Positions 2,819 to 54,774 of a stretch of DNA of 64,000 nt are shown here, in pieces. A model generated the notes under the pieces. The model was not told the origin of the DNA and ran no database searches. It was given only the letters and a program-made list of their open reading frames with translations. Made by a program: the position numbers and the translations under genes. The DNA is from Candidatus Jettenia sp. AMX2 (GTDB taxonomy: Bacteria > Planctomycetota > Brocadiia > Brocadiales > Brocadiaceae): the NCBI GenBank assembly GCA_030583665.1, contig CP129469.1:806001-870000 (forward strand), written 5' to 3'. The first letter of the stretch is position 1. Every line of letters starts with the position of its first letter.

Positions 2819-4410
2819 TGGGAAATCACAGGCAACTTTTTATTGACGAATTAGCGAATCAGTTCAAAGATACTGTCATCATTGTGAAAAGTTTTCTGGA
2901 AAATGAAATTTATATTTCTGTGAAAAAGGAAAATCTTTTGGATGTGTGCGTTTATATATGTGGAAACCTGCATGCGGGTCTTTCGTCGATGATATGTAAC
3001 GACGAAAGAAGTCTGAATGGAAATTTCAGGATTTACTACGTTTTTTCTATACCTCGCGCAGATATGTTTTTGATTGTTCATATACCCGTAAGTGAAGACC
3101 ATCCGGAATTCCCCTCAATTACCCCAAAAATACCCGCAGCGCTTTGGTATGAGCGTGAGATTAAGGATATGTTCGGGCTCGAACCCGTTGGGCATCCTGA
3201 CCCTTCTACGCTTGTGCTTCATGGCAATATGCCGGAGAGAACGTATCCTTTACGTAAGGATTTTGATGCAAATACCCGTATACCCCTTCGGGAATCCAGA
3301 ATGCCATTTTTTAAAGTAGAAGGTGAAGGGGTTTTTGAAATTCCTGTGGGTCCCATCCATGCAGGCATTATTGAACCCGGACACTTCAGGTTTAGCGCTG
3401 TCGGTGACAGCATCTATTACCTTGACGCAAAATTGTTTTATACACACAAGGGTACAGAAAAGCTGTTTGAGACGATGCCATATACAAAGGCATTGTTCCT
3501 TGCCGAGCGAATCTGCGGTGTTTGTGCGGCTTCACATGCAACAGGATACTGTCAGGCCATTGAAAAGGTGGCGGGTGTCGAAATTCCACCGCGTGCAAAA
3601 TTTATAAGGACCATTGTTTTGGAACTGGAGAGGCTTTATAACCATATTGGCGATGTTGGCAATATCTGCGCAGGTGCAGCCTTTCTCCTGGGAAACTCAC
3701 ATGGTTTCAGGATTCGTGAACGCATACAGCAGCTTAACGAAACTATTTGTGGTAATCGTTATCTAAGAGGTATGCTTACGATTGGCGGTGTGCGTTTTGA
3801 TATTGATGATGATTTTAAAAAGTATCTCTTAAGTACCCTCGGTGATGTTAAAAAGGATTTCAGGGAGCTCGTAACGATTGTCACGGACTCATCCTCTTTA
3901 TTAGACCGGTTGGAAGCTACAGGCAGGCTATCTGCAGAAGTTGCTAAGGAGTTAGGGGTTGTTGGTGTTGCTGCACGTGCATCCGGGATTGCTACGGATA
4001 CCCGTATTATTCACCCGTATGCAGCTTATAAAGAAGTAGATTTTGACATTCCTGTCTTTTATTACGAGGGGGATGTCCTTGCAAGGTTACGGGTGAGGAT
4101 AGATGAGGTTTATCAGTCAATTTATATTATTGAACAATGTTTTGATAAAATGGCGCCGGGTCCTATAAAAACCCAGGTCAGGGAGCTTCCACCTTATAAA
4201 CAGGCATTGAGCTATGTAGAATCGCCGCGTGGTGAAAATATTTACTGGGTTATGACTGCGCCAAATAATATGCTGTTCAGATATAAGGTACGGTCTCCTT
4301 CTTTCTGTAACTGGCCGGCAATTTCATATTCAATTTCCAACGATATTGTTCCGGATTTTCCTTTGATTAACAAGAGTTTCGAATTGTGCTATTCATGTAC
4401 TGATTTATAG
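2818..4410 (+). CDS. hyfG: Group 4 [NiFe]-hydrogenase large subunit (HyfG/HycE-like, NuoC-NuoD fusion)
   Basis: Catalytic subunit of 530 residues. The N-terminal ~150 residues are a NuoC (30-kDa) domain with the typical ERE-KDMFGLEP stretch at about 122-133; the rest is a NuoD/HycE domain. Both nickel-binding cysteine pairs are present: RICGVC (C233, C236) with the following ASH, and CYSC at the very end (C524, C527). True hydrogenase activity is therefore plausible, unlike complex I NuoD. The protein stops at CTDL, three residues after the last cysteine. E. coli HycE has a C-terminal peptide after this point that a dedicated protease removes; here that extension is missing. The residue before the final pair is FEL instead of the usual DP. 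The next gene follows 3 bp downstream. Confidence 0.9.
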   Translation: MGNHRQLFIDELANQFKDTVIIVKSFLENEIYISVKKENLLDVCVYICGNLHAGLSSMICNDERSLNGNFRIYYVFSIPRADMFLIVHIPVSEDHPEFPSITPKIPAALWYEREIKDMFGLEPVGHPDPSTLVLHGNMPERTYPLRKDFDANTRIPLRESRMPFFKVEGEGVFEIPVGPIHAGIIEPGHFRFSAVGDSIYYLDAKLFYTHKGTEKLFETMPYTKALFLAERICGVCAASHATGYCQAIEKVAGVEIPPRAKFIRTIVLELERLYNHIGDVGNICAGAAFLLGNSHGFRIRERIQQLNETICGNRYLRGMLTIGGVRFDIDDDFKKYLLSTLGDVKKDFRELVTIVTDSSSLLDRLEATGRLSAEVAKELGVVGVAARASGIATDTRIIHPYAAYKEVDFDIPVFYYEGDVLARLRVRIDEVYQSIYIIEQCFDKMAPGPIKTQVRELPPYKQALSYVESPRGENIYWVMTAPNNMLFRYKVRSPSFCNWPAISYSISNDIVPDFPLINKSFELCYSCTDL

Positions 4411-5803: not shown

Positions 5804-5970
5804 ATGTCACTCCAAATGGAGCTTTACGTGGTAAATCTGACATCCAAGAGATTTTTATATTTTTATAATTTCAAGTACTTAAGAAACCGATATTTTGTTG
5901 CCCTCTGTGTCTATAATAGTTGGACATTTTCCTTGTAATAGTTTAGTGTAGGGCGAGGAGGAAAACAACT

Positions 5971-6459
5971 ATGAAAAATAATGAGAAAAGCAAAGAAAAT
6001 ACTTTACAAGCGTTGGTGGAACCGGAGAGAGCCCGTAGGGCGAACGGAGGTTCCACCAACGCTCCTGCTGGCAATTGTGTCCCCGACCCAGAGGTGTCAG
6101 AAAAAGCAGCAAGACGTAAGTTTACTGCACAGTATAAGATTCGCATCCTTCGGGAGGCCGATGCCTGCACAAATCTCGGGCAGATTGGAGCACTCTTGAG
6201 AAGGGAAGGTCTTTATTCGTCTAATCTCACTACCTGGCGCCGTCAACTGGAACGTGGCACCCTGGAGGCGCTTTCTCCAAAACGACGCGGACCAAAGGAG
6301 AAAAAATCTGATCCGGCAGCACGACGTATCAAAGAACTTGAATGCGAAATTAATTCTCTTCAGCAAAGGCTCAAACAGGCTGAAACCATTATCGAGATTC
6401 AAAAAAAAATCTCAGAAATGTTGAATATCCATTCCACTCTGATAGGAGAAAACAGATGA
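5971..6459 (+). CDS. IS3-like transposase OrfA (DNA-binding), copy 1
   Basis: A 162-residue protein with an HTH_Tnp-type domain (FTAQYKIRILREADAC, LGQIGALLRREGLYSSNLTTWRR, about residues 50-90) and a C-terminal coiled coil with heptad leucines (about 115-155), as expected for IS3-type OrfA. A Shine-Dalgarno sequence (GAGGAGG) precedes the ATG. Residues ~14-34 (ALVEPERARRANGGSTNAPA) do not resemble the family and are encoded by a 55-bp hairpin insert. It overlaps orfB by the four bases ATGA, which points to translational coupling instead of the -1 frameshift used by many IS3 elements. Confidence 0.85.
   Translation: MKNNEKSKENTLQALVEPERARRANGGSTNAPAGNCVPDPEVSEKAARRKFTAQYKIRILREADACTNLGQIGALLRREGLYSSNLTTWRRQLERGTLEALSPKRRGPKEKKSDPAARRIKELECEINSLQQRLKQAETIIEIQKKISEMLNIHSTLIGENR
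6009..6063 (+). repeat. Hairpin element embedded in frame in orfA
   Basis: Perfect 15-bp inverted repeat (AGCGTTGGTGGAACC at 6009-6023 and its complement at 6049-6063) around a 25-bp loop that holds a smaller palindrome (GCCCGTAGGGC). It lies wholly inside the coding sequence and keeps the frame open. The same hairpin is in copy 2 at 10319-10373. Confidence 0.85.
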
Positions 6460-7451
6460 TGCTTGCCGTTGAATCACTTGCCAAAGAGATTCGTATGAAA
6501 AATGCCTGTGAAACGTTGGGCATCCCACGGGCAAGTTATTACTACTACCAGAAAAATATTCAGCAAAGGCGTATCACGGTAAAACCACCTCTGGCATTGT
6601 CTCCCACGGAGGAACACATCATACTTGATACCTTACACTCTGAGCGTTTTTGTGATAAGTCTCCCCGGCAAGTATATACAACCCTCCTGGATGAAGGGGT
6701 CTATCTGTGTTCTGTAAGAACTCTGTATCGTCTCCTGGAAAAACACCACGAGGTAAGGGAACGAAGAAACCTGTTACGTCACCCCGTATATCAGAAACCT
6801 GAACTCCTGGCAACTGCTCCCAATCAGGTATGGTCCTGGGATATCACAAAACTGAAAGGGCCAACAAAATGGAGTTATTTTTATCTCTATGTGATCCTTG
6901 ACATCTTCAGTCGCTATGTGGTCGGCTGGATGGTTGCACACAGGGAACAAGCGGCTCTGGCTGAAAGGTTGATACGTGAGACTGCCAACAAACAGGGTAT
7001 TCAACCTGGACAACTGATTATTCATGCTGACCGGGGATCAAGTATGACTTCTAAACCAGTTGCCTTTCTGCTCTCTGACCTGGGGATTACAAAAAGCCAC
7101 TCCAGGCCTTACGTCAGTAATGATAATCCCTATTCTGAATCACAGTTTAAAACCCTTAAGTATCATCCTGAATTCCCTGGATTTTTTACCTCTATTGAAT
7201 CTTCCAGAATATTCTGTAAGAATTTCTTTCTCTGGTACAATACGGAACACTATCATTCAGGCATCGGACTCTTTACTCCCGAATCTGTTCATTATGGACG
7301 TACAGATCATATTGTGAAAGAACGAAGCCGTGTGTTAAAGACCGCTTTTGAAAAACATCCGGAACGGTTCAAGGGAAAAGTACCTGAACCTCCACGTTTA
7401 CCACAGGCTGCATGGATTAATCAACCAAAACGGGAAAATACACTATCGTGA
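6456..7451 (+). CDS. IS3-like transposase OrfB (DDE integrase), copy 1
   Basis: A 331-residue rve-type integrase. N-terminal residues ~20-100 form an HTH_21-like region (GIPRASYYYYQK; SPRQVYTTLLDEG). The catalytic core carries the DDE triad: the D of VWSWDITKL, the D of IIHADRGSS and the E of NPYSESQFKTLKY. It starts at ATGATG overlapping the orfA stop. It catalyses strand transfer of the element together with OrfA. It differs from copy 2 by one visible residue (TAFEKHPE here, TAFKKHPE there), so both copies are recent and probably functional. Confidence 0.9.
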   Translation: MMLAVESLAKEIRMKNACETLGIPRASYYYYQKNIQQRRITVKPPLALSPTEEHIILDTLHSERFCDKSPRQVYTTLLDEGVYLCSVRTLYRLLEKHHEVRERRNLLRHPVYQKPELLATAPNQVWSWDITKLKGPTKWSYFYLYVILDIFSRYVVGWMVAHREQAALAERLIRETANKQGIQPGQLIIHADRGSSMTSKPVAFLLSDLGITKSHSRPYVSNDNPYSESQFKTLKYHPEFPGFFTSIESSRIFCKNFFLWYNTEHYHSGIGLFTPESVHYGRTDHIVKERSRVLKTAFEKHPERFKGKVPEPPRLPQAAWINQPKRENTLS

Positions 7452-8930: not shown

Positions 8931-9926
8931 TCACGATAGTGTATTTTCCCGTTTTGGTTGATTAATCCATGCAGCCTGTGGTAAACGTGGAGGTTCAGGT
9001 ACTTTTCCCTTGAACCGTTCCGGATGTTTTTTAAAAGCGGTCTTTAACACACGGCTTCGTTCTTTCACAATATGATCTGTACGTCCATAATGAACAGATT
9101 CGGGAGTAAAGAGTCCGATGCCTGAATGATAGTGTTCCGTATTGTACCAGAGAAAGAAATTCTTACAGAATATTCTGGAAGATTCAATAGAGGTAAAAAA
9201 TCCAGGGAATTCAGGATGATACTTAAGGGTTTTAAACTGTGATTCAGAATAGGGATTATCATTACTGACGTAAGGCCTGGAGTGGCTTTTTGTAATCCCC
9301 AGGTCAGAGAGCAGAAAGGCAACTGGTTTAGAAGTCATACTTGATCCCCGGTCAGCATGAATAATCAGTTGTCCAGGTTGAATACCCTGTTTGTTGGCAG
9401 TCTCACGTATCAACCTTTCAGCCAGAGCCGCTTGTTCCCTGTGTGCAACCATCCAGCCGACCACATAGCGACTGAAGATGTCAAGGATCACATAGAGATA
9501 AAAATAACTCCATTTTGTTGGCCCTTTCAGTTTTGTGATATCCCAGGACCATACCTGATTGGGAGCAGTTGCCAGGAGTTCAGGTTTCTGATATACGGGG
9601 TGACGTAACAGGTTTCTTCGTTCCCTTACCTCGTGGTGTTTTTCCAGGAGACGATACAGAGTTCTTACAGAACACAGATAGACCCCTTCATCCAGGAGGG
9701 TTGTATATACTTGCCGGGGAGACTTATCACAAAAACGCTCAGAGTGTAAGGTATCAAGTATGATGTGTTCCTCCGTGGGAGACAATGCCAGAGGTGGTTT
9801 TACCGTGATACGCCTTTGCTGAATATTTTTCTGGTAGTAGTAATAACTTGCCCGTGGGATGCCCAACGTTTCACAGGCATTTTTCATACGAATCTCTTTG
9901 GCAAGTGATTCAACGGCAAGCATCAT
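8931..9926 (-). CDS. IS3-like transposase OrfB (DDE integrase), copy 2
   Basis: 331 residues, identical to copy 1 except Lys for Glu in TAFKKHPERF near the C-terminus. All DDE residues are intact (VWSWDITKL, IIHADRGSS, NPYSESQFK). It overlaps its OrfA by ATGA, so expression should follow OrfA by coupling. Confidence 0.9.
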   Translation of the reverse strand: MMLAVESLAKEIRMKNACETLGIPRASYYYYQKNIQQRRITVKPPLALSPTEEHIILDTLHSERFCDKSPRQVYTTLLDEGVYLCSVRTLYRLLEKHHEVRERRNLLRHPVYQKPELLATAPNQVWSWDITKLKGPTKWSYFYLYVILDIFSRYVVGWMVAHREQAALAERLIRETANKQGIQPGQLIIHADRGSSMTSKPVAFLLSDLGITKSHSRPYVSNDNPYSESQFKTLKYHPEFPGFFTSIESSRIFCKNFFLWYNTEHYHSGIGLFTPESVHYGRTDHIVKERSRVLKTAFKKHPERFKGKVPEPPRLPQAAWINQPKRENTLS

Positions 9927-10411
9927 CTGTTTTCTCCTATCAGAGTGGAATGGATATTCAACATTTCTGAGATTTTTTTTTGAATCTCGATAATGGTTTC
10001 AGCCTGTTTGAGCCTTTGCTGAAGAGAATTAATTTCGCATTCAAGTTCTTTGATACGTCGTGCTGCCGGATCAGATTTTTTCTCCTTTGGTCCGCGTCGT
10101 TTTGGAGAAAGCGCCTCCAGGGTGCCACGTTCCAGTTGACGGCGCCAGGTAGTGAGATTAGACGAATAAAGACCTTCCCTTCTCAAGAGTGCTCCAATCT
10201 GCCCGAGATTTGTGCAGGCATCGGCCTCCCGAAGGATGCGAATCTTATACTGTGCAGTAAACTTACGTCTTGCTGCTTTTTCTGACACCTCTGGGTCGGG
10301 GACACAATTGCCAGCAGGAGCGTTGGTGGAACCTCCGTTCGCCCTACGGGCTCTCTCCGGTTCCACCAACGCTTGTAAAGTATTTTCTTTGCTTTTCTCA
10401 TTATTTTTCAT
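9923..10411 (-). CDS. IS3-like transposase OrfA, copy 2
   Basis: 162 residues with the same translation as copy 1, including the in-frame hairpin-encoded peptide near residues 14-34 (hairpin at 10319-10373). It has an HTH domain followed by a coiled coil. The GAGGAGG ribosome-binding site is retained. Confidence 0.85.
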   Translation of the reverse strand: MKNNEKSKENTLQALVEPERARRANGGSTNAPAGNCVPDPEVSEKAARRKFTAQYKIRILREADACTNLGQIGALLRREGLYSSNLTTWRRQLERGTLEALSPKRRGPKEKKSDPAARRIKELECEINSLQQRLKQAETIIEIQKKISEMLNIHSTLIGENR

Positions 10412-10549
10412 AGTTGTTTTCCTCCTCGCCCTACACTAAACTATTACAAGGAAAATGTCCAACTATTATAGACACTGAGGGGATGAAGCAAATGAAATTA
10501 TTGCCATAACAGACTATTGAAAACTTAGTGTTTAAATTCATGATTAATA

Positions 10550-51650: not shown

Positions 51651-51726
51651 GTCTAACGTTTGAAGTCACCCTTTGGCAAGCCGCGTATCGCGCGAGTTGA
51701 CAATAGGGTGCACTTCATTGTTGTGA
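51651..51726 (-). other. attC-type recombination site (integron cassette)
   Basis: Read on the - strand this is an imperfect palindrome. The right-hand core box is GTTAGAC (R', fits GTTRRRY). Next to it, arm TGAAGTCACCCT (51661-51672, + strand) pairs with the complement of AGGGTGCACTTCA (51705-51717), with a single unpaired G in one arm. Such an extra-helical base is the hallmark of attC sites, which are recombined as folded single strands. The left outer box is degenerate (CACAAC). It follows the membrane-protein ORF directly, as expected for a cassette. Confidence 0.7.
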
Positions 51727-51730
51727 AATC

Positions 51731-52164
51731 TCATTCTTTCACTATCTTTGACACGATGCCAACTCTTGCTACGTTGCCAACGATGAGGACGCCAACGAAG
51801 ACGAAGGCCGTAGTCCAGACGTCTTTACCGAGGGAGTCCCACACTGACCGATATTGCGACACGAAGAAGTTGACTACTGTCAGCGCCGCGATGGTCATGA
51901 CAAGAAATGAGAAGCCGTCGTACACTAACGGATTGGCGCGTGGGACGACCGATCCCTGTGCATGGCGATGAGCCAAGATAGAGAGAACACCCACAGACCT
52001 GCCGAGTACACGACTTGGAGGTAGCAGAGGAGGAGGAAGACAACAACGCCAGCCACTGTGCCGAACATCCAGACGAAGCTCGCGAGGCAGGTGACCGCGA
52101 AGGAGTTGGCGAAGAACAGAAACCCGAATGAATAGGAAGAGATTTTTGTTTCAAGAATTGGCAT
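51731..52164 (-). pseudogene. Cassette-borne membrane protein, frameshifted
   Basis: Two overlapping frames join into one ~145-residue, four-helix membrane protein. Frame 1 (ATG 52164) gives MPILETKISSYSFGFLFF to SLSWLIA and soon stops. Frame 2 gives AHRHAQGSVVPRANPLVYDG to VARVGIVSKIVKE and stops at 51731. The shift lies near 51960-51995. It is visibly richer in GC than the flanking genes and sits directly before an attC-type site, so it is a cassette gene of foreign origin. No family is recognised. A sequencing error is the alternative to true decay. Confidence 0.6.
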
Positions 52165-52206
52165 AAGTAATATACAATACTACTGTTTTCTTCCGACTCG
52201 TTCGGG

Positions 52207-52413
52207 TCAGTTACTTGTCTTTTCCATTTGTAAAAAAGAAACTTCTGACATGCCTGCTTTTTCCTTTGCATGTTCAATGGTCATGCTGACAAGATTGCCC
52301 TTTTCATCCAGGTCAATGTAAAGGTTTTCTGATATTTCTTTTGTCTCAACGATAGGTACATTTGAAAACTCAATCAACGCTGTATCTGTATCCGAGAAAT
52401 AACGGATTTTCAT
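52207..52413 (-). CDS. DUF2283-family protein
   Basis: 68 residues that match the DUF2283 pattern: MKIRYFSDTDTALIEFSN, VETKEISENLYIDLDEKGNL and TIEHAKEKAGMSE. A strong Shine-Dalgarno (AAGGAGGG) precedes ATG 52413 and lies inside the upstream gene, with which it overlaps by ATGA. Such proteins commonly pair with a DUF4258-like partner, as here, and are suspected of forming small toxin-antitoxin-like modules. AT-rich, unlike the surrounding cassettes. Confidence 0.85.
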   Translation of the reverse strand: MKIRYFSDTDTALIEFSNVPIVETKEISENLYIDLDEKGNLVSMTIEHAKEKAGMSEVSFLQMEKTSN

Positions 52414-52652
52414 TTTTCTCCCTCCTTAAAGTTTCTATCAAAGAAAGCATTATGAACGGTCTCTCCGTCTTCAAGAAGTATAACTCTTAAACACTTTCCT
52501 GCTTCTTCGATAAATTTCCATTGCCTTATCCTTCCATCGTTCTGAATTTCTGTTTTCACAGGTTTTTTGATGGCATCCAATATCCACTCCTCTTTAATAA
52601 TCGCCCTGTCTGGTCGCTGTTTGATGAATGAAAAGTATTGCGTGCATTTCAT
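52410..52652 (-). CDS. DUF4258-like small protein, partner of DUF2283
   Basis: 80 residues from ATG 52652. A longer open frame to 53000 exists but belongs to the decayed nuclease-like gene. The core FIKQRPDRAIIKEEWILDAIKKP, DGRIRQWKFIEEAGKCLRVIL and the closing HNAFFDRNF fit a small alpha-beta protein of the DUF4258 kind. A TATAAT lies at 52659-52664 with TTGGAA 18 bp before it, so transcription would start about at the ATG, giving a leaderless mRNA; no ribosome site is seen. It is coupled to the DUF2283 gene by ATGA. Confidence 0.75.
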   Translation of the reverse strand: MKCTQYFSFIKQRPDRAIIKEEWILDAIKKPVKTEIQNDGRIRQWKFIEEAGKCLRVILLEDGETVHNAFFDRNFKEGEK

Positions 52653-52743
52653 ATTTCTATTATACCATTTTCGGCCGGATGCTTCCAAAACCTTTAAGAT
52701 GTGCCCTCTTATATTCTCTCTTCCAGCCGATGGTTGGCCGTTC

Positions 52744-53433
52744 CAATTCTTCAGGTCCACGATGATGGTTGCCACTCGCCTCGCGAGCCTGCTGTCCTTT
52801 AGCCCGAGACACTTGTGTGCCAGAGAACAGCACCTTGCCATTCCTCGGAAGACGCCAGATCGGGCACATCCGGAGCATTTCCGAAGTATATGAAGACGAA
52901 GTATATGAAGACCAAGTAGATGTCCTTCTTGTTGATCCCTGCCAAATAGTAGAGATGTGCGAGACGATTCGCCATCTGGTACAGAGGAGTATGCCAGCAA
53001 GCATCATCGTTTGCGCGAAAAGCTGACTTGGCTTCGTCCAAGCGCTTCTCAATTTTGCGGAGTACGTCGGGCGATGCCTTGCTTCGGAAATCAACGGTCT
53101 CGTCAATGTGCGCCTTAGCTTCAACAAGGATCAATTTGCCATCCATTGTACGGGCAAGACCATCCCAACGTGGCCGCTCTTGGGCCAGAACTCGTCAAGT
53201 GGCATAGTCAGTTGGTCAACACCAAGGCGGTCAAGGAATGACTAATCATAATATTCTGCGTAATCGTCATCCTGACGCGGGGACCGCCAGTCGATTACGG
53301 CTTCACGCCAACCGAAGGCCTCGGCGATAGCAGTACCTAGCAAACCGGGGTACTCTCGTACCATCAGACGCAGCCAATGTTCGCTTCGTCTTGCCTCCGG
53401 TGGTCTTGGTCGTCTCGGCATTCTTATCCTCAA
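52744..53433 (-). pseudogene. Decayed PD-(D/E)XK-like cassette gene
   Basis: Pieces in three frames assemble to a single ~230-residue protein. WLRLMVREYPGLLGTAIAEAF to DDDYAEYYD ends at an in-frame TAG (53242-53244); after it come SFLDRLGVDQLTMPLDEFWPKSG; a frameshift near 53165 leads to WDGLARTMDGKLILVEAKAH with AFRANDDACWHTPLYQMANRLAHLYYL; and a second shift near 52810 leads to CLGLKDSRLARRVATIIVDL. A 15-bp tandem duplication (GAAGTATATGAAGAC, about 52880-52912) adds extra residues. LVEAKAH resembles the E-x-K of nuclease-fold proteins. The gene starts just after the attC-type box at 53434. Confidence 0.7.
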
Positions 53434-53485
53434 GGCTAACGTTTGAGTTAGGCTCTGGCATTGCCGTTACCGCTTGAATGCCAGA
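53434..53485 (-). other. attC-type recombination site, right half well conserved
   Basis: On the - strand the right simple site reads GCCTAAC-TCAAAC-GTTAGCC (53434-53453), the expected RYYYAAC, 6-bp spacer and GTTRRRY. A 9-bp inverted repeat adjoins it (TCTGGCATT 53454-53462 and complement 53477-53485), overlapping the end of the upstream coding sequence. The left half is not clearly conserved. It separates the EamA cassette from the nuclease-like cassette. Confidence 0.65.
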
Positions 53486-53904
53486 ACCAAAACGCCGCTG
53501 GCGACGAGGCCTATGCCCAGCCACTCACGCATGGACGGGCGTTCACCAAGAATGGTGAAGGCAAACACGGCGACAAGCACAAGGCTAAACTTGTCTACGG
53601 GCGCTACCTTGGATGCTTCGCCGACTTGTAGCGCACGAAAGTAGCACACCCAGGACGCGCCCGTTGCCAAAGCTGACAGCGAGAGAAAAAGCAGTGTCTT
53701 TGACGACAGTGCGCGAGGATCGCTCCACTTGCCGGCGTACCAAACGAATGCTGCCAAGACGAAGACGATGATGATGGTACGGATGAGCGTTGCGAAGTCT
53801 GAGTCAATGCCTCGAATGCCGATCTTGGCGAAGATCGCCGTCAGCGCGGCGAAGCAGGCAGACAGCGCTGCCCAGAAGAACCAACCGCTCGGCGTAGTCA
53901 TCAT
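53467..53904 (-). CDS. EamA-type (DMT) single-domain transporter in a gene cassette
   Basis: About 145 residues from MMTTPSGWFFWAALSACFAA, with ATG 53904 or 53901; the upstream in-frame ATG 53952 lies beyond the cassette boundary and is rejected. Five hydrophobic segments. The closing ALQVGEASKVAPVDKFSLVL and ILGERPSMREWLGIGLVASG are typical of the EamA half-transporters found in integron cassettes. It probably exports small metabolites as a dimer. Clearly GC-rich compared with the surrounding genome. It starts ~12 bp after a GTTAGGC core, as expected for a cassette. Confidence 0.85.
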   Translation of the reverse strand: MMTTPSGWFFWAALSACFAALTAIFAKIGIRGIDSDFATLIRTIIIVFVLAAFVWYAGKWSDPRALSSKTLLFLSLSALATGASWVCYFRALQVGEASKVAPVDKFSLVLVAVFAFTILGERPSMREWLGIGLVASGVLVLAFKR

Positions 53905-53915
53905 GGTTTCGTGGA

Positions 53916-53922
53916 GCCTAAC
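53916..53922 (-). other. GTTRRRY core site at cassette boundary (attI/attC edge)
   Basis: GTTAGGC on the - strand, immediately before the EamA cassette. With the next core at 53434 it bounds a ~480-bp cassette. What lies beyond (53927-54079) is a MITE-like element, so the rest of the recombination site is destroyed or displaced. Confidence 0.6.
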
Positions 53923-53926
53923 AATG

Positions 53927-54079
53927 ATTATACAGTCTGTATAAAACGGCAATCACAGACTGTTTCGGTATAGATAAGAAGTCGCCGTGTCTTCTTCTCA
54001 TTTATTATAACTTATTTTGCATCAAGTATATGAAGATTATCTCTAAATTGCCCATTCCGGTTTATACAGACTGTATAAT
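53927..54079. repeat. 153-bp MITE-like element with palindromic ends
   Basis: 19-bp perfect terminal inverted repeats (ATTATACAGTCTGTATAAA at 53927-53945; complement 54061-54079). Each end is itself a palindrome, TATACAGTCTGTATA. Inner subterminal GGCAAT/ATTGCC motifs also mirror. No ORF inside. It is wedged between the integrase remnant and the first cassette. Confidence 0.75.
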
Positions 54080-54084
54080 ACGTC

Positions 54085-54153
54085 CTATAACCCATCGACC
54101 GGGCTTCGGACACCATGACCTCCTTTGTTCAAGACATGGGTGTAGATCTTTGG
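54085..54153 (-). pseudogene. intI: Integron integrase (IntI) C-terminal remnant
   Basis: The - strand reads PKIYTHVLNKGGHGVRSPVDGL then TAG (54085-54087). IYTHVLN-GG-GVRSP-D is the nearly invariant end of integron integrases and includes the catalytic tyrosine (codon 54142-54144). Two codons upstream the frame meets TAA, so only about 22 codons remain. The fragment has the same orientation as the cassettes, with its 3' end facing the first one, the arrangement of the reverse-oriented integron integrases known from some Planctomycetes and spirochaetes. Confidence 0.7.
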
Positions 54154-54477
54154 CCAGGTTTATGCCTGTGTAGTACTCGCTCAAGAACATTTTCAAGTTT
54201 GAGTGATATGATGTGGTATTCTACTCCCGAGACTACCATGCGAGCGATCCCGGACACATCCGCATATTAACTGTTTTTAAAATAAAGTCAATAATTATGT
54301 ATGGTGTTCCTGGAATTCAACAATTTCCTCCGCTTCGATTGTAATTGCTGCCCATGTTGGAAGAGGAAGCGAAAGAAAGACAATGCGTGTATTATGGCAA
54401 CCAATACGATAGTGGACTTGTGCAAAAAATTGCACAATGTTAATTGAACCTAACTGCACCCACGTTCAGGCCGCTTA
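54154..54477. other. Region without recognised gene next to the integrase remnant
   Basis: About 320 bp. A - strand stretch near 54190-54255 reads IARMVVSGVEYHIIS, weakly like the start of a Y1 transposase, but it is too short to call. The remainder shows nothing. Confidence 0.4.
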
Positions 54478-54672
54478 AATTAGGCCTTCGGCGACTTTGT
54501 TTTAGCTACACGTAGGGTTAAATGGAAATTAACACTGTCAGGGTTCTCAACCCTGACAATGTTCTGATCATGAACTGGGACAAACACTATCGTATCATAT
54601 TACCATCACCAACCTTATAACAACACCTCCCCGCAAACCCGCTTCATTAAAATAAAAATTCCTATACAATGA
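54478..54672 (-). repeat. Dispersed ~190-bp repeat with hairpin, copy B
   Basis: Inverted copy of 7957-8148 with a few base differences. The hairpin arms are AACACTGTCAGGGTT (54531-54545) and AACCCTGACAATGTT (54549-54563), one mismatch. The TATAGGAATTT end lies near 54664. Confidence 0.8.
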
Positions 54673-54774
54673 ACTTATCAGCGATAAATATTCTGCACTG
54701 TGCAAAATACTTTTCTGGTGACGGTTTTTAGGGGGTCAATTACGCTAAGTATTTGATATGCATAAAGTTAAAAA

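Follow-up and report, generated by a model that had tools for sequence, protein, structure and literature searches.

The block at positions 51651–54153 of the window is, with high probability, the decayed remains of an inverted chromosomal integron. The window comprises 64,000 nucleotides, bases 806001–870000 of a 3.46-Mb genome that forms a single contig. The hydrazine synthase alpha family is represented twice in this genome and is missing from all 14 control genomes; thus the host is an anammox bacterium. Read along the minus strand, the block contains in order the tail of an integron integrase (IntI), an attI site, a cassette with an EamA transporter gene, a cassette with a nuclease-like gene, a cassette encoding a membrane protein, and an attC site. 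The intI remnant lies on the strand of the cassettes, with attI at its 3′ end, which is the layout of inverted integrons. The tail, the attI boundary, the single attC, the order of the cassettes and their decay are all directly visible at this platform. The cassettes are also richer in GC (0.53–0.57) than the window (0.43), as the original prediction had noted. Inverted integrons are a known kind, to which this platform adds a case, and taken alone it is an ordinary relic. Its wider interest is that anammox bacteria have repeatedly taken up genes by means of integrons, and that near-identical platforms holding different cassettes show directly where the attI crossover lies.

The integrase remnant PKIYTHVLNKGGHGVRSPVDGL* occupies 54085–54153 of the minus strand and includes the position of the active-site tyrosine (IYTH). 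Its earlier assignment to the C-terminus of an integron integrase is well founded: the tail matches the last 21 positions of the TIGR02249 integrase_gron model (E = 2.6e-5) and is identical at 19 of 20 residues to the C-terminus of P0001, a full-length IntI encoded in the same genome. The alternative that the fragment derives from a XerC-type recombinase was checked. Only IntI models match the tail, XerC and XerD models yield no match to it, and the C-termini of the genome's own Xer proteins are without GGHGVRSP; the locus is not of the XerC/XerD type. What remains here is the last ~21 residues of IntI, and a functional integrase gene is absent. Relative to the sister copy at locus L014, discussed below, about 164 bp are missing inside intI. 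Fused to the tail at 54149–54290 (minus strand) is a sequence common to the window and the sister platform, with BLASTN matches to L013, the P0001 locus, and to L014. It resembles fragments of REP-associated Y1 transposases, an identity read from an ORF at L013.

Two full-length IntI frames are present in the genome, both outside the window platform, and full-length genes occur in related genomes as well, in keeping with the expectation that other anammox genomes would hold an intact intI. P0001, of 380 residues, lies at 1.941 Mb (L013:7042–8184; G000:C1:1941044–1942183). It scores 455 bits against TIGR02249, and its best relative of solved structure is IntI4 (2a3v, E = 1e-80). Box II of P0001 carries tyrosine in place of the conserved histidine (AGYYTFRH, compared with AGCHTFRH in a relative from genome G031), a substitution suggesting that the full-length IntI nearest to the window platform may itself be impaired. 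The second frame encodes 447 residues, retains the conserved active-site motifs and belongs to a clade other than that of P0001. Its locus (G000:C1:1542214–1563009), with at least five attC matches downstream on the strand of the integrase gene, is apparently another inverted integron.

The common orientation of tail and cassettes, part of the original prediction, recurs with the full-length homologue, which likewise lies upstream of its own attI block and array and on the same strand. Among the loci compared, L013 and L121 share the inverted layout of the window platform; the canonical layout is found at L116, L118, L119 and L120 and in the class 1 controls. Since the 447-residue IntI is apparently inverted yet falls in another clade, inversion may have had more than one origin, among the only three inverted IntIs that were scored.

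Three core heptamers had been placed on the minus strand, GTTAGGC at 53916–53922, GTTAGCC at 53434–53440 and GTTAGAC at 51651–51657, and all three are found there. The first was taken for a cassette-type (attC) site. Comparison across the family shows that it is instead the end of an attI block (53916–54148, minus strand). This block, about 230 bp long and ending at the core, recurs in the genome at 78–94% identity over the matched parts and recurs also in related genomes of the family. In 25 of 30 family alignments, counted by hand, the match stops at query positions 3516–3521, which correspond to the GTTAGGC core. Past GTT every copy continues into different sequence; of the 14 copies read, 9 have an ORF of 133 residues or more that begins 12–93 bp beyond the core. 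The crossover would lie at G^TT, and it is there that the first cassette of the window platform is inserted. Because the sites in the attI conservation profile were picked by the attI pattern, with up to 4 mismatches, the high conservation of the core is partly a product of that selection, but the sharp drop after GTT is not.

A repeat search found a 23-bp inverted repeat inside the attI block, with two copies of TTATACAGACTGTATAA at 53927–53949 and 54057–54079; its arms are 96% complementary. The order of half-sites in this palindrome is presumably unlike that of the E. coli LexA box, and control of it by LexA was rejected. A cassette promoter in attI was not recovered by the sigma-70 scan, whose output does not include the TATAAT that abuts the core.

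The complete attC lies at 51651–51726 of the minus strand and consists of R″ (TCACAAC), L″ with an extrahelical G, L′, and R′ (GTTAGAC). The fold with one extrahelical base that had been proposed for this site is borne out. As single-stranded DNA the site has z = −4.5, none of 200 shuffles being equally stable, and the outer bases of R″ and R′ are unpaired. An attC model, R2, was trained on 16 attCs, eight from plasmid class 1 integrons and eight from loci of the anammox order, with the window left out. In the window it matches 51651–51726 at 27.2 bits (E = 0.00029), the outcome that the original prediction had called for; the next match has E = 0.54, and the site is by this model the sole significant attC in 64 kb. 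In a whole-genome search with R2 it has E = 0.016, the E-values of the attC models being rough. R2 came after an earlier model, and its column geometry was chosen when the arms of the attC at 51651 had already been inspected. The first model, R1, built from attCs without their loops, missed the site; it was replaced by the full-loop R2 because it performed poorly on a long-loop training site and was blind to 51651. Simpler searches were of less use: GTTRRRY occurs 76 times in the window and 129 times in shuffles, which is uninformative alone, and a strict R″/L″/L′/R′ pattern scan was abandoned after returning only chance-level counts. The half-site CAAACGTTAG occurs twice in the 64 kb, where 0.12 is expected, both times within the integron block and on the same strand; the 3.46-Mb genome has seven.

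The site at 53434 does not live up to its prediction as an attC. It is the degenerate attC of cassette 1 (53434–53466, minus strand), in which only the right half, AGCCTAACTCAAACGTTAGCC, is left. This half resembles the right halves of class 1 attCs; the L″ arm is absent, and both R1 and R2 match just a 20-nt R″/R′ hairpin, which they report on the plus strand. For cassette 2 no attC was found. One of the three cassettes at this locus ends in a complete attC.

Across the genome R2 returned 20 attC matches with E up to 0.02, of which 16 lie outside the training set. Twelve of these 16 fall within 20 kb downstream of an intI/attI locus on the same strand, where 0.6 would be expected. The 13 loci used in this count were listed by hand after the attC matches were known; distance limits of 5, 10 and 20 kb were tried and capture 7, 8 and 12 of the 16, all far above expectation.

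Directly after the first core, where a single EamA gene had been predicted, cassette 1 encodes a single-EamA transporter of 145 residues (53467–53904, minus strand; PF00892, E = 4.3e-22, residues 8–142). Its frame is intact and starts 18 nt past the attI core. Because 53434 is incomplete as an attC, the gene is flanked by attI and a mere half-site. Plasmid relatives of the protein were sought for the sake of its attC; neither of the two loci inspected has an annotated integron. The nuclease-like gene was correctly placed right after the second core, and it is broken: cassette 2 (52697–53433, minus strand, end approximate) survives in two pieces, 53242–53433, which abuts 53434, and 52799–53146. 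An intact homologue of 234 residues in the same genome (L208:4866–5570) begins 7 bp past an attC. The label "nuclease" refers to an E-x-K motif seen by eye, and a Pfam search of the protein gave no family match.

A DUF2283 gene and an 80-residue partner follow at 52207–52652 (minus strand; PF10049, E = 7.5e-17). The segment 52212–52695 has a 96% identical counterpart in another genus, near which no attC was found in the stretch fetched; on these grounds the pair is probably a later two-gene insertion. The last cassette gene (51731–52164, minus strand), for a small membrane protein, is split between two frames (51925–52164 and 51731–51994), and its stop lies 5 bp ahead of R″ of the attC. It has no protein-family match and no plasmid relative. 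An intact proximal gene and broken distal ones would agree with expression driven from the side of attI, at this one locus.

We infer the following series of captures and losses. The ancestral integrase gene would have been oriented toward its own attI, and IntI would have recombined circular cassettes, each through its folded attC, with attI at G^TT. In this way the EamA transporter, the nuclease-like gene and the small membrane protein would have been gained downstream on the same strand. A later deletion would have taken almost the whole of intI. The attC of cassette 1 would have lost its left half, cassette 2 would have become a pseudogene with the DUF2283 pair alongside, and the last cassette would have acquired its frameshift. 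The EamA gene, adjoining attI, may still be expressed.

The sister platform L014, at 1.25 Mb, is 94% identical to the window copy, shares its upstream flank, and has another cassette joined at the identical base. Two almost identical platforms that differ in the cassette attached there are what integron recombination predicts. Downstream of the L014 core lies a gene of 609 residues, DUF262-like as read from its sequence, followed by a 50.1-bit attC that belongs to the training set of R2. In this region (L014:6597–10930) the gene and its attC are succeeded by type I restriction-modification-like genes. A tree of 40 attI blocks, quickly made from a short alignment and with many weak forks, joins the window and L014 copies as a supported pair and intermixes the genome's remaining copies with those of other species.

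The attI platforms of this genome are multi-copy and dispersed, with seven attI-like sites in 3.46 Mb. With up to 3 mismatches allowed, the attI pattern, which covers the final 24 bases of the block, has 73 matches spread over 26 of the 33 family genomes; reversed, it has none. A description of such dispersed multi-copy platforms in anammox bacteria was not found in a mostly open-access literature, which is weak evidence. Because two full-length IntIs are encoded elsewhere in the genome, it is possible that the window platform is mobilised in trans. A broader proposal, that the family genomes hold dispersed and mostly integrase-less attI platforms served in trans by a few full-length integrases, is tentative and, on balance, rather doubtful; if true, captured genes would be spread over many chromosomal addresses and not gathered in one array. 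The dispersed copies pose a testable question, namely whether one integrase acts in trans on distant platforms. The original description of a "frozen platform" holds for the local integrase and not beyond it, since the genome has several such platforms.

Other readings of the locus can be set against this evidence. It is unlikely that the window platform is a live outlying one, into and out of which the full-length IntIs of the genome continue to move cassettes in trans. Its attI core and EamA frame are intact, sister platforms differ in the cassette inserted at the equivalent base, and the 447-residue IntI combines conserved active-site motifs with several attCs downstream; but cassettes 2 and 3 are pseudogenes, the attC of cassette 1 is broken, and P0001, the most similar IntI, has the tyrosine at the box II histidine. 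The dispersed block might alternatively be a non-autonomous mobile repeat that includes attI-like sequence and the tail of intI, in which case the adjacent genes would be chance neighbours and not cassettes. A mobile repeat requires a defined left end, and none is seen: a constant right end at G^TT is paired with left ends that vary with the amount of intI that is left. Moreover, same-strand attCs follow the blocks far above chance, and a full-length intI occurs in the same arrangement. These observations make a mobile repeat highly improbable, despite the many copies per genome and family, the palindromic inverted repeats within the block, the copies found in tandem, and the upstream flank that is also common to the window and L014. 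There is least to be said for a chance grouping, in which unrelated foreign genes happen to lie next to dispersed GTTRRRY motifs and a fragment of Xer type. Such a coincidence would agree with the lack of GTTRRRY enrichment and the chance-level pattern scan, but the family-wide attI boundary, the R2 match at 51651 and the near-identity of the tail to a full IntI (19 of 20 residues) leave it a negligible probability.

The favoured reading, a decayed inverted integron, has precedents. Inverted chromosomal integrons are known from Treponema, and the inverted-type intI branch clusters with Kuenenia stuttgartiensis and Blastopirellula marina (PMC3607928, PMC8352920). Likened by gene arrangement, the window platform resembles the Treponema integrons in that intI points toward attI and lies on the strand of the cassettes, and it has in common with the intI cluster an anammox host, Kuenenia being a member. 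Unlike the Treponema integrons, it retains only the tail of intI, and its attI block is multi-copy and dispersed. With class 1 integrons (IntI1, attI1 and resistance cassettes) it shares the attC geometry and the G^TT boundary; in contrast, its integrase orientation is opposite, the IntIs are ~50% identical, and its cassettes are of the non-resistance kind.

Units of the form attI-gene-attI are reported to be rare in class 1 integrons (PMC12901181). Several family genomes have a comparable arrangement of two or more attI blocks in tandem on the same strand, 0.7–1.7 kb apart, whereas attI occurs once in the window. The second site of the published delta-attI cassettes is mostly a truncated attI of 14–18 nt; in the family genomes it is most of the block of intI tail plus attI. 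The tandem blocks were seen at G029:C164, G010:C1:3077256–3084733 (L131), G018:C171, G021:C61 and G025:C242, and small genes lie between them, HicB-like in L131. A CALIN is a cluster of attC sites without a nearby integrase (PMC7923331). The window locus is similar in having no functional integrase, and differs in keeping attI and the integrase tail. Since a CALIN takes at least two attC sites without an integrase, the one complete attC of the window locus places it outside this class.

The remnant is flanked by recG–DUF362 on one side and by tRNA-Ala–yfcE–grpE–dnaK on the other. Each flank is conserved in the same-genus genome G001, on different contigs, and the remnant thus lies at a synteny break. 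Both sister platforms start ~50–60 bp 3′ of a tRNA gene, with a 66-bp sequence (54662–54727 in the window, 5925–5989 in L014) that they share and that the rest of the genome lacks. The tRNAs themselves differ, tRNA-Ala in the window and tRNA-Ser at L014. Insertion targeted to tRNA genes was considered and rejected: a tRNA gene adjoins only these two platforms, and 16 of the 19 loci scanned are without one. The interspersed repeat at 54476–54682 has three more full copies, 95–96% identical, among the genome matches listed, and one of its ends recurs in ~40 short partial copies. Elsewhere in the window, 5963–7065 and 9317–10419 contain the same sequences on opposite strands, which suggests a large inverted duplication.
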